The position numbers and the translations under genes are program-made. A stretch of 45,590 bases of DNA from Myxococcales bacterium (GTDB taxonomy: Bacteria; UBA10199; 2-02-FULL-44-16; JAAZCA01): contig JAAZCA010000004.1 of assembly GCA_012513515.1 (NCBI GenBank), positions 1 to 45,590 on the forward strand. Reading direction: 5' to 3'. Shown one piece after another: positions 15,456 through 18,933 of the stretch (within the stretch, counting starts at the first letter, position 1; every line of letters begins with the position of its first letter). The notes under the pieces are model-generated. The model did not search any database and was not told where the DNA came from. It saw nothing but the letters and a program-made list of their open reading frames with translations.

Positions 15456-15477
15456 AAAAAACCCTTTGCTCGAAGGG
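15456..15477 (-). terminator. Weak intrinsic terminator after iscS
   Basis: On the minus strand a short stem CCCTT / AAGGG (15473-15477 with 15462-15466) is followed by six T. It lies between the iscS stop and rplM. The stem is short, so efficiency is doubtful. Confidence 0.45.
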
Positions 15478-15538
15478 CGCGAAAATCTATAGGGAAAAAG
15501 GGGGGTAAGTCAAGGGAAATATTGCAGTTAAAAGGGAT

Positions 15539-16693
15539 TTAACAAAATGGCGAAAGGGCTCTGAGGCGCTCTATGATCGAGGGGAGCTTTTCCAGTATGA
15601 AATCTATCTCACCGTCGGAATTATAGCGGGATAGCGAAAAACGGATGGATCCGTGCGCCCTTGTAAAAGGAATACCCATCGCGATCATCACGTGCGAAGG
15701 ATCCAGCGACCCCGAGGTGCAGGCGGAGCCCGATGAGGCGCAGATTCCATGCTCGTTCATCATGAGGAGGATGGCTTCCCCTTCAATTCCCTCGAAACCT
15801 ATATTGGTGGTGTTTGGGAGCCTGCTCTTCGTATTCCCATGGACGAATGATTTTTTAATCGAGCTGAGGAGCCCTGTTTCGAGGCGATCGCGCAGGAGCT
15901 CCATCCTTCGTATCTCGGATTTCATGTCATCCATCGCGAGTTCGCAAGCCCTTCCAAAGGCTACTATAGAGGCGACGTTTTCGGTTCCTCCGCGTCGGCC
16001 CTTTTCCTGATGTCCGCCGATGAGGAGGGGATGAAAGGGGGTTCCTTTTCTTACGTAGAGGGCGCCGACCCCCTTTGGGGCGTGAACTTTGTGTCCCGAT
16101 ACGGAGAGGTATGTGACCGGCGTTTCAGCCATGTTGATCGGCAGTTTTCCCAGAGCCTGGACCGCATCGACATGCAGAGGGACTCCGCGCTCGCTGCAGA
16201 TTTCGGCTATCTTCTTTATCGGAAAGATCACTCCCGTTTCGTTGTTGGCCCACATTATCGAAACTATTGCGGTCTGGCTGGTTATTGCTCTTTCAAGTTC
16301 CGATATATCAAGATTTCCATCAGCGTCCACCTTCAGGTAACTCGCCCCGTATCCATCTCTTTCCAATTTTTTTACAAGATTGAGGACGGCAGGGTGTTCG
16401 ACGCTCGATGTAATGATATGGCGTTTTTCGGGGCTTGCCGCCAGCGCGGATCTTATAGCAGCGTTATCGCTTTCTGTGCCGCAGCTGGTGAAGATTATCT
16501 CACTTGGGCTGGATGCCCCAAGTATTGTAGCGATCGAGCCTCTTGCCTCATCTATGTGTTTGGCAACCTGTCCGCCAAAGGTATGTATGCTGGAGGGATT
16601 GCCCCAGTAATTATTCAGGAAAGGGAGCATGGCATCTATGACTTCGGGAGCGACTTTCGTCGTCGCATTGTTGTCCACATACACGATGCTCAT
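15539..16693 (-). CDS. nifS: Cysteine desulfurase (NifS/IscS type)
   Basis: A 384-residue PLP enzyme that removes sulfur from cysteine for Fe-S cluster assembly. YVDNNATTKVAPEV opens the fold, the PLP lysine lies in SVSGHKVHAPKGVGALY, and the catalytic cysteine loop is GICASSGSACTSGSLDPSHV. The CASSGSAC form and NifU partner place it with the NIF-type (group I) desulfurases. It overlaps nifU by four bases (ATGA), so the two are translationally coupled. In non-nitrogen-fixing bacteria such a NIF pair can be the housekeeping Fe-S system; no nitrogenase genes are seen here. Confidence 0.94.
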   Translation of the reverse strand: MSIVYVDNNATTKVAPEVIDAMLPFLNNYWGNPSSIHTFGGQVAKHIDEARGSIATILGASSPSEIIFTSCGTESDNAAIRSALAASPEKRHIITSSVEHPAVLNLVKKLERDGYGASYLKVDADGNLDISELERAITSQTAIVSIMWANNETGVIFPIKKIAEICSERGVPLHVDAVQALGKLPINMAETPVTYLSVSGHKVHAPKGVGALYVRKGTPFHPLLIGGHQEKGRRGGTENVASIVAFGRACELAMDDMKSEIRRMELLRDRLETGLLSSIKKSFVHGNTKSRLPNTTNIGFEGIEGEAILLMMNEHGICASSGSACTSGSLDPSHVMIAMGIPFTRAHGSIRFSLSRYNSDGEIDFILEKLPSIIERLRALSPFC

Positions 16694-17556
16694 TCCTTCA
16701 CCTCCTCGACCTTCATGTACGGTGAGACCTCTTTCCTGATCTCCTTTTCCACGAAGCTACGCAGTGTGTTTGATGACGAGGGACAGTTCTTGCATGCTCC
16801 ACGCAGTTTCACCAATATGGTATCATTATCGATATCCACCAGCTCTATATCGCCGTGATCCTGTTGAAGGGCGGGGCGAATGCGGTTTTCAATTATTTTT
16901 TCTATGAGGTGGAGTCGTTGCAGGTTCGTCATGCCGTCCACGGGAATTTTATTTGGTTCGCTCTTCGCTCTTTTCCCCTTGTCCTTCATCAGATCGGCCT
17001 GTGCCCGGTCAATTACCTCCTGGATTTTTCCTTTGCACTGTTCGCAGGCTCCGCCTGCCTTGGTGTAATTTGTAACCTGTTCGACTGTTTCCAGTTCGTT
17101 TTCCTTTACGACCCGCCTGATTTCAGGCTCTGTTACGCCAAAGCATTTGCAAACGACTTCGCCTTCGAGTTTGTGCACCCTGTGCATTTCACCGTTGAAA
17201 TTTTCTATGGCAGCTTCGAGCGCCTCTCTACCCATGACCGAACAGTGCATTTTTTCCTCTGGAAGACCTCCGAGGTAGTCGGCTATTTCCTTGTTGGTTA
17301 TGGAGAGGGCCTCTTCAAGGGTTTTCCCTTTTATCATTTCGGTCAGGGCGGAGCTCGACGCTATTGCCGATGCGCAACCGAAGGTCTTAAACTTTGCATC
17401 GACGATTTTTCCATCGGAGCCGAGACGGAAAGTTAGCCTCAGCATGTCGCCACAGGCAAGCGATCCGACCTCGCCGATTCCATCGGGATTTTCTATTTCA
17501 CCTACGTTTCTCGGATGAAGAAAATGATCGACGACTTTTTCCGTATAGTTCCACAT
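16690..17556 (-). CDS. nifU: NifU, three-domain Fe-S scaffold
   Basis: A 288-residue scaffold for Fe-S clusters with all three NifU domains. The IscU-like domain (about 1-125) has its three ligand cysteines in GSLACGDML, KTFGCASAIA and KMHCSVMG. The central BFD-type [2Fe-2S] domain (about 130-190) has VCKCFGVTE and AGGACEQCKGKI. The C-terminal NFU domain (about 210-280) has the cluster-transfer CxxC in GACKNCPSSSNTL. The ATG 17556 follows GGAGCG, and the gene begins three bases after the MerR regulator. Together with the desulfurase this forms a compact NIF-type assembly operon. Confidence 0.95.
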   Translation of the reverse strand: MWNYTEKVVDHFLHPRNVGEIENPDGIGEVGSLACGDMLRLTFRLGSDGKIVDAKFKTFGCASAIASSSALTEMIKGKTLEEALSITNKEIADYLGGLPEEKMHCSVMGREALEAAIENFNGEMHRVHKLEGEVVCKCFGVTEPEIRRVVKENELETVEQVTNYTKAGGACEQCKGKIQEVIDRAQADLMKDKGKRAKSEPNKIPVDGMTNLQRLHLIEKIIENRIRPALQQDHGDIELVDIDNDTILVKLRGACKNCPSSSNTLRSFVEKEIRKEVSPYMKVEEVKE

Positions 17557-17559
17557 AAT

Positions 17560-18066
17560 TTACGCTCCAGTTTCAGTTGTGAATTCATCGATACCGACCA
17601 ACGATGTCATGATTGTTTTGACGCTTTGATCGCCAGAATCCCTCTTGAGCAAGCAATTTTTACAGGAGGAATTGTTCTCCTTTCCCTCGCAGCCCTTGCA
17701 TTGCGAGAGAAATTCCAGGAGCGCATCTATTTCGGATATTCCATTCGATAGCTTTGTAATCTGCCGTTCGAATTCCTGTTTCATATCGTCGAGGGCCTTT
17801 TGAAATGCCGCGATCGTCTCCGGGTCCGCTATGCTGGCTCCGGGGGAGAGTATCCGCTTGATCTCCGATAGCGAGATTCCGAGATCGCGAAATCTGGCTA
17901 TGAGTTTTAACAGCTCTATATTTTCTGTCGAATAGAGACGGAAGCCGCCATCGCTGCGCAGAGGGGTTATAAATCCGAGCTCCTCATAATACCTTATCGT
18001 CCTTTGGGAGAGCCCCGTCAGATTTGATAGCTCTCCTATAAATAACTTTTTTTGTTGCATATTCAT
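17560..18066 (-). CDS. MerR-family regulator with a cysteine-rich tail, first gene of the Fe-S operon
   Basis: A 168-residue regulator. Residues 8-75 form the MerR winged helix (FIGELSNLTGLSQRTIRYYEELGF... GFRLYSTENIELLKLIARFRDLG), then a long dimerisation helix. The tail has a four-cysteine pattern, CKGCEGKENNSSCKNC, able to hold zinc or an Fe-S cluster. Being first in an operon with nifU and nifS, it may play the part IscR has elsewhere, sensing Fe-S status; this is inference. I place the start at ATG 18066. No RBS precedes it and the promoter -10 ends only six bases upstream, so the mRNA may be leaderless. A second ATG two codons on is also possible. Confidence 0.8.
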   Translation of the reverse strand: MNMQQKKLFIGELSNLTGLSQRTIRYYEELGFITPLRSDGGFRLYSTENIELLKLIARFRDLGISLSEIKRILSPGASIADPETIAAFQKALDDMKQEFERQITKLSNGISEIDALLEFLSQCKGCEGKENNSSCKNCLLKRDSGDQSVKTIMTSLVGIDEFTTETGA

Positions 18067-18072
18067 GTCGGC

Positions 18073-18106
18073 AGTGTACGCCAACATTAACGTTAACGTC
18101 AATGTT
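18073..18106 (-). promoter_or_regulatory. Promoter and palindromic operator of the MerR-nifU-nifS operon
   Basis: The 24 bases at 18083-18106 form a palindrome whose arms, AACATTAACGTT and AACGTCAATGTT, match at 11 of 12 positions. On the minus strand it overlaps a -35 (TTGACG, 18097-18102) and most of the 18-base spacer in front of a -10 (TACACT, 18073-18078). A dyad inside an elongated spacer is the classic MerR arrangement, and points to autoregulation. Confidence 0.7.
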
Positions 18107-18184: not shown

Positions 18185-18862
18185 TCATACTCTTCTTGCA
18201 TGTTCGGGGAGAGGGGGGGCTGCCTTATGGCTTACAAATATATTTATCATAGTCTGAGTATATGCCATGACCCCCGGAACGTAGTTCTGAGTCTCCTTAA
18301 ATGGAGGGATTTTGTTGCCGTATTTTTCTACGTTGTGTTCGCCGGCGTTATATCCGGCCAGGGCAAGGCTCATATCCCCTTTAAACTTATTCAGGAGCCA
18401 GCGAAGGTACTTGGTTCCGCCATCTATGTTCTGCTTGGGATCAAAGGAGTTTGTAACCCCGAATCTTTTTGCGGTTCCGGGCATAAGCTGCATCAATCCT
18501 CTTGCCCCACAGTGGGAAACGGCCCTGTGCTGAGCACCGGATTCCTGAAGGATTACGCCGCAGATAAGCTCAACCGGCACATTATATTTGCGGGCTGCTT
18601 CCTCTATGTGAGGGGCGTAGCTGGCAAGCCTTCTGGCCTGTGTTTCGGTTATTTTTCTGGACTTTGCCAGCCTTGGTGGCTGCTCCCTCCTGGCGGCCCG
18701 TATTTTTTCGGAAAACTGAGGTCTTTCTTTGGATTCCTTGGCGGGGAGCTTCTTTACCACCTCTTGTGAGAAGGGGAGTGAGCTTCTCCTGGAAACACGC
18801 TTGCTTTCAAGGAAGCTTCCAAACTGCTCCGCTATTCTCTGTGCCTTTATCTGCTCGCTCAT
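18185..18862 (-). CDS. Lytic transglycosylase (SLT domain)
   Basis: A 225-residue protein with a C-terminal SLT (Slt70/MltE-like, GH23) domain at about residues 80-215. The catalytic glutamate is in GVILQESGAQHRAV, followed by GARGLMQLMPGTAKRFGV and LALAGYNAGEHNVEKYG, all family motifs. It cleaves peptidoglycan glycan strands. No Sec signal peptide or lipobox is seen: residues 1-75 are polar and basic, which is odd for an enzyme acting in the periplasm, and recalls transglycosylases tied to secretion machines. ATG 18862 follows GGAGAAGG; an upstream start in the same frame lacks an RBS. A weak -24/-12 element lies at 18918-18933. Confidence 0.88.
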   Translation of the reverse strand: MSEQIKAQRIAEQFGSFLESKRVSRRSSLPFSQEVVKKLPAKESKERPQFSEKIRAARREQPPRLAKSRKITETQARRLASYAPHIEEAARKYNVPVELICGVILQESGAQHRAVSHCGARGLMQLMPGTAKRFGVTNSFDPKQNIDGGTKYLRWLLNKFKGDMSLALAGYNAGEHNVEKYGNKIPPFKETQNYVPGVMAYTQTMINIFVSHKAAPPLPEHARRV

Positions 18863-18917
18863 CTGCCTTCTCCATGATCGATGGCGCCTGTTATGCCATC
18901 TATCCGGGGTGCAGATA

Positions 18918-18933
18918 TGCAAATACCATACCC
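18918..18933 (-). promoter_or_regulatory. Possible sigma-54 (-24/-12) promoter of the transglycosylase gene
   Basis: The minus strand reads GGGTATGGTATTTGCA. The GG/GC spacing and TTGCA are right, but three of the -24 bases differ from TGGCACG. Transcription would start near 18907, some 45 bases before ATG 18862. Confidence 0.4.

Follow-up and report, generated by a model that had tools for sequence, protein, structure and literature searches.

Control of iron–sulfur (Fe–S) cluster assembly is primarily ascribed to IscR and SufR and is largely open in most Gram-positives (PMC8593673); the papers that we found assign it to IscR, RisR, or SufR, and none of them to a MerR protein. In the stretch of 45,590 bases analyzed here (the window), a gene for a MerR-type regulator is located directly ahead of nifU and nifS, which raises the question of whether a MerR protein may govern Fe–S assembly and, if so, through which DNA site and which signal. 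No MerR regulator of Fe–S assembly was found described in the open-licence literature, nor was a curated family found for this particular kind of regulator.

The merR–nifU–nifS operon and its putative regulator

The operon lies on the minus strand and begins with the regulator gene merR (17560–18066; 168 amino acids), assigned by its Pfam MerR domains and its orthologues. It is followed after a gap of 3 nt by nifU (16690–17556), encoding a full-length, three-domain scaffold protein (NifU_proper, 382 bits, above the cut-off), and then by nifS (15539–16693), which overlaps nifU and encodes a cysteine desulfurase (curated model FeS_nifS, 604 bits, above the cut-off). A terminator-like hairpin with a T run, recognized by pattern match alone, is located 3′ of nifS (15461–15478, minus strand). 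Likewise on the minus strand, and 118 nt upstream of merR, lies a lytic transglycosylase (SLT) gene, slt (18185–18922), which occupies the same position in the relatives L004–L007. Seven orthologues of the regulator were found among 46 genomes of the same class, clearly separated by score (at least 207 bits, versus 77 for the next match). nifU comes after merR in every orthologue, and nifS too where the sequenced stretch examined is long enough. The original prediction that the MerR gene heads a NIF operon is thus confirmed, with nifU–nifS downstream in the window as in 7/7 class orthologues, and the order merR–nifU(–nifS) kept in 8/8 genomes.

Full-length NifU is encoded in 10 of the 46 class genomes, and the MerR protein in eight of those ten and in none of the rest, most of the genomes compared being drafts and counts inside one class not being independent. 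A normal SufBD pair is found in none of the ten NifU genomes (one weak partial SufBD match occurs in G001), and a SUF system in 35 of the 36 remaining ones. As for the NIF genomes without the MerR protein, G043 has an Rrf2 gene with a C-x7-C-x5-C motif directly after nifU–nifS (L209, contig C158), as if the regulators had been swapped, and G045 has the order nifS–nifU with no regulator recognized alongside. In the source genome, SufBD was not found, and merR–nifU–nifS is the only complete Fe–S assembly system found. Its only Rrf2 gene (L033, G000:C36:7655–8038), which encodes three cysteines, is preceded by an rpoD-like sigma gene and followed by a VKOR/DsbA-like gene, and is not near Fe–S assembly genes. 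From these findings, Fe–S assembly in this organism seems to depend mainly on NIF, with the MerR protein as the apparent regulator.

The N-terminal helix-turn-helix domain places the regulator in the MerR family, with 69.9 bits against MerR_1 (PF13411; cut-off, 21.6) and with 52.1 and 28.1 bits, both above the cut-off, against the Pfam domains MerR (PF00376) and MerR-DNA-bind (PF09278); it falls outside every curated equivalog. No match to the Rrf2 domain, by which IscR and RisR are recognized, was found in Pfam. Membership of SoxR was rejected (40.6 bits versus a cut-off of 116.9), the C-x2-C-x-C-x5-C pattern also being absent, as was membership of the metal sensors CueR, ZntR, CadR, and MerR, for which the best score was far below the cut-off (70.6 versus 147.4, for CueR); the relatives of the regulator likewise remain below the cut-offs of curated MerR-type equivalogs. 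The C-terminal tail, CKGCEGKENNSSCKNC (codons 123–138; 17653–17700, minus strand), contains four cysteines (Cys123, Cys126, Cys135, and Cys138) arranged as C-x2-C-x8-C-x2-C. All four are unchanged in 8/8 orthologues, despite only 31–37% identity to the window protein, and in 16/16 members of a wider set (21–37% identity), and the CxxC…CxxC tail foreseen from the window withstood this comparison, in which variable cysteines would have told against it. Solved relatives retrieved by a PDB profile search stop short of the tail, at about position 122 of the profile, and a single-sequence AlphaFold2 model (mean pLDDT, 69.7; pTM, 0.46) was too poor for judging a metal site. In the phylogenetic tree, the own-class regulators form one group (support, 100/97), and a single clade of all tail-bearing MerR proteins is neither supported nor rejected (p-AU, 0.33).

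Operator, promoter, and start codon of merR

A 24-bp palindrome, AACATTGACGTTAACGTTAATGTT, occupies positions 18083–18106 and is assigned as the operator by its uniqueness in the window and its conservation. Its two 12-nt arms are complementary at 11 of 12 positions and joined with zero spacer; no second such repeat is present in the window, and a chance palindrome was ruled out, as ten dinucleotide shuffles of the window gave none. The operator is kept in 7/7 readable promoters (those of the window and six orthologues; the upstream sequence of L008 reads N), with orthologue sites that are ACCTTGACGTTAACGTTAAGGT-like and a −35 hexamer that begins 8 nt before the dyad center in all six readable cases. 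The palindrome across the −35 and spacer had been proposed from the window, and its conservation and uniqueness bear this out. In the whole source genome, the merR site is the sole exact match; a wider regulon was dismissed there, as allowing up to two mismatches added one repeat-like site only. In the L006 operator (G003:C77:4818–4839), another palindromic match overlaps the first at an offset of 6 nt.

The −35 hexamer TTGACG (18097–18102) lies within the operator and is separated by an 18-nt spacer from the −10 hexamer TACACT (18073–18078), which is followed by six bases (GCCGAC) and the ATG start codon (18064–18066; all minus strand), so that the ATG falls where +1 is expected. Promoter-like matches by consensus alone are about as frequent as expected by chance (4 versus 3.3), and the promoter call is credible because both hexamers are conserved with the operator in the orthologues. 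The −10-to-start distance is 6 nt in 6/7 promoters, the window included, and 8 nt in L010. At the 6-nt place, GTG replaces ATG in L005, where the sole earlier ATG sits within the −10, and in L006 and L007 in-frame stops inside the promoter exclude an earlier start. No Shine–Dalgarno sequence was detected at the merR start in 7/7 loci, with pairing energies to the 16S tail that lie between +1.5 and −3.9 kcal/mol, against a random median of −2.35 kcal/mol. In the window, the values are −1.5 kcal/mol for merR, −6.8 kcal/mol for nifU, and −13.1 kcal/mol for nifS, and nifU has a Shine–Dalgarno sequence in all compared loci (−6.8 to −13.2 kcal/mol).

The original description of a −10 about six bases before the ATG, and of no ribosome-binding site, is therefore upheld, and the leaderless translation suggested with it is made probable at the sequence level by the −10-to-start distance and the missing Shine–Dalgarno sequence. 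As the best reading, the merR message is probably leaderless or nearly so, with its start predicted at the ATG itself. It is distinctly improbable that merR is expressed from an upstream promoter instead, for example by read-through from slt, with the palindrome promoter being minor or false. The position of slt on the same strand, 118 nt upstream, and the chance level of consensus matches would suit such an arrangement; however, the 6-nt spacing shared by 6/7 promoters (L005 having GTG at exactly this place) and the joint retention of −35, operator, and −10 argue against it, and a longer leader would bring no gain with no Shine–Dalgarno sequence at any of these merR starts.

Relatives and operators in other classes

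A profile search over 385 genomes gave distant MerR proteins with the same tail, and two classes were then searched, in which tail-bearing relatives head the SUF operon at 26 loci and the ISC operon at 41. In the SUF class, 27 of 47 genomes have a tail-bearing MerR protein, whose gene precedes that of an A-type carrier and/or sufC in 26 loci and iscS in the exceptional L158. Matches were obtained in 147 of 193 sampled genomes of the ISC class, which has large genomes, and the gene precedes iscS in all of the best 30 loci; the main loci were chosen by score, and ten lower-ranked ISC loci behaved alike. The gene order is MerR, A-type carrier, small unknown gene, sufC, and sufB-, sufD-, sufS-, and sufT-like genes in L211, and MerR–iscS–iscU–iscA–hscB–hscA–fdx, the layout of IscR, in L212; these names were given from translations, and Pfam backs the A-type carrier, ABC ATPase, and desulfurase in matching loci. 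For tail-less MerR proteins, no Fe–S assembly neighbors were found within ~1.5 kb in 45 loci (some duplicates).

The tail as a sure sign of an Fe–S operon is ruled out by 16 tail-bearing loci with other neighbors, namely five next to sigma-70 genes, L107, and L199–L208. In the sigma-70-linked loci (L106, L108, L109, L121, and L124; longer stretches, L213 and L214), a MerR gene with the four-cysteine tail is directly before a sigma-70 family gene, most of them having a similar upstream palindrome, and a sigma factor could in this way come under the same signal. L199–L208 form a separate tail-bearing group in the ISC-linked class, with neither Fe–S genes nor the family operator nearby; a folE-like gene is next in L207, and the neighbors vary elsewhere in the group. 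In L107 (G137:C31), the upstream palindrome is perfect but of another sequence, ATACAGTAACGTTACTGTAT, and neither Fe–S nor sigma genes occur within 1.5 kb.

With a matrix built from the seven own-class sites alone, scores exceeded the 99th shuffle percentile in 85% of upstream regions in the SUF class and 78% in the ISC class; the corresponding share was 0% for the paralogue group L199–L208 and 13% for tail-less MerR proteins. Since the tail-less L115 and L118 carry a similar palindrome upstream, this operator type is not exclusive to Fe–S regulators. The refined family operator, derived from 78 sites, is ACYCTNACGYWWRCGTNAGRGT. With one mismatch allowed, it was found in one copy each in 9 of 12 genomes tested (2.7–13.3 Mb), every copy being just upstream of the MerR gene of the Fe–S operon and at no other place, and the reversed control gave no matches. 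The sites of the three remaining genomes diverge by more than one mismatch. Judged from these sequences, the regulator and its operator look like a private pair.

The position of the operator relative to the promoter varies by clade. It overlaps the −35 in the own class, L158, and L106, and the −10 in most loci of family f278 (the −10 ends 10 nt before the center), and runs from about +1 onward in the SUF class (the −10 ends 20 nt before the center in 11/12 promoter-called loci, the twelfth being L158); the promoter spacers are near-optimal (17–18 nt) across clades. Classical activation by MerR proteins requires a dyad inside a spacer of 19–20 nt, a geometry that is typical of activators and not a requirement for the MerR fold family, whereas in the window the −35 begins 8 nt before the dyad center. 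Occlusion suits every operator position and hence suggests repression, and the geometry favors a repressor over a SoxR- or MerR-like activator.

Proposed role and comparison with known systems

We consider it rather likely that the protein is a dedicated MerR-type autorepressor of merR–nifU–nifS that senses Fe–S supply through its four cysteines. The regulator dimer would bind the 22–24-bp palindrome, with a half-site of about ACCTTNACGTT, and thereby cover the −35 and the −35-proximal portion of the spacer, blocking RNA polymerase. The four C-terminal cysteines would sense Fe–S supply, most likely through a labile Fe–S cluster. Repression would hold while clusters are plentiful and be lifted upon loss of the cluster, and the regulator, scaffold, and desulfurase would then be made together, from a message that probably starts at the start codon. 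This would be a negative feedback as in IscR, RisR, and SufR, built on an unrelated scaffold. The operon, the operator, the conserved cysteines, the single target, the repressor-compatible geometry, and the co-occurrence with NIF are all found in the genomes themselves; we infer that the protein represses, what it binds, and which way it responds, the Fe–S signal being deduced from the target operons, as in IscR, RisR (PMC9973013), and SufR (PMC8593673). Of the alternative Fe–S sensor originally proposed, the regulator role fits, as the MerR protein occurs only with NIF in its class and G043 has Rrf2 instead; the binding of a cluster by the cysteines is presumed, the tail being present also in MerR proteins without Fe–S neighbors.

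It is unlikely, if plausible, that the protein is a dedicated NIF repressor whose cysteines bind zinc, as a structural site or Zn sensor, or form disulfides, and that it answers a metal or an oxidant. Two CxxC pairs with 8 residues between them likewise fit a zinc-binding pattern, such a tail is also present away from Fe–S genes, beside sigma factors and in L199–L208, and metal sensing is common among MerR proteins. Nevertheless, the targets are three kinds of Fe–S assembly operon in three classes, no metal efflux or uptake genes were seen alongside them, and the ZntR, CadR, CueR, and MerR scores are far below the cut-offs. A classical MerR- or SoxR-type activator, which untwists a long spacer upon effector binding, would agree with the MerR fold and domains and with the mode of action of most characterized MerR regulators, but is very unlikely in view of the 17–18-nt instead of 19–20-nt spacers, the dyad that, depending on the clade, is centered near the −35, on the −10, or from about +1 onward, and the missing SoxR cysteine pattern and low SoxR score mentioned above.

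Beyond the single locus, and returning to the sensing autorepressor, we lean with some reserve toward an undescribed family of MerR-type Fe–S sensors in at least three classes, whose members would be dedicated repressors of NIF, SUF, or ISC operons, hold a cluster through C-x2-C-x8-C-x2-C, and recognize ACYCTNACGYWWRCGTNAGRGT, having reached this role beside Rrf2 proteins (IscR and RisR) and SufR. A MerR lineage occupies the place of the Fe–S controller before all three kinds of operon, and the defined 22-bp operator offers one testable target per genome. As the protein is common in the large-genome class (147 of 193 sampled), a cultivable test organism probably exists. If the proposal is true, control of Fe–S assembly would join the roles of MerR proteins, and it would become apparent how a MerR protein can work by simple repression from operators that shift in position; the locus also offers a conserved, probably leaderless regulator start.

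Like IscR (Rrf2; iscRSUA–hscBA–fdx), the regulator is encoded by the first gene of its own predicted Fe–S target operon and has C-terminal cysteines, and the MerR protein of L212 takes the place of IscR before iscSUA–hscBA–fdx; it differs from IscR in its unrelated fold family, its C-x2-C-x8-C-x2-C arrangement, its operator, and its single target. With SoxR, a MerR-family protein with a [2Fe-2S] cluster bound by C-x2-C-x-C-x5-C, it shares the MerR scaffold and a C-terminal four-cysteine site, whereas SoxR is an activator with an operator within a long spacer, and the score of the regulator is far below the SoxR cut-off. The operator of LiuR may be similar to that of merR. RisR of Myxococcus xanthus is a dedicated Fe–S repressor of the Rrf2 family outside the IscR group, which represses in the holo form and controls isc and suf jointly, MerR proteins being absent from the text of that paper (PMC9973013); the present regulator is likewise predicted to be a dedicated Fe–S repressor, but is not an Rrf2 protein. 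SufR, the [4Fe-4S] repressor of suf with a C-x12-C-x13-C-x14-C site (PMC8593673), resembles it as an autorepressor (predicted here) at the head of an Fe–S operon, and differs in DNA-binding family and cysteine pattern. Finally, CvkR, a MerR-type repressor of the type V-K CAST translated from a leaderless mRNA (PMC9938897), has another target, the motif AnnACATnATGTnnT, and no recognized effector site, and provides a precedent for the combination of MerR-type repressor and leaderless message that is predicted here.
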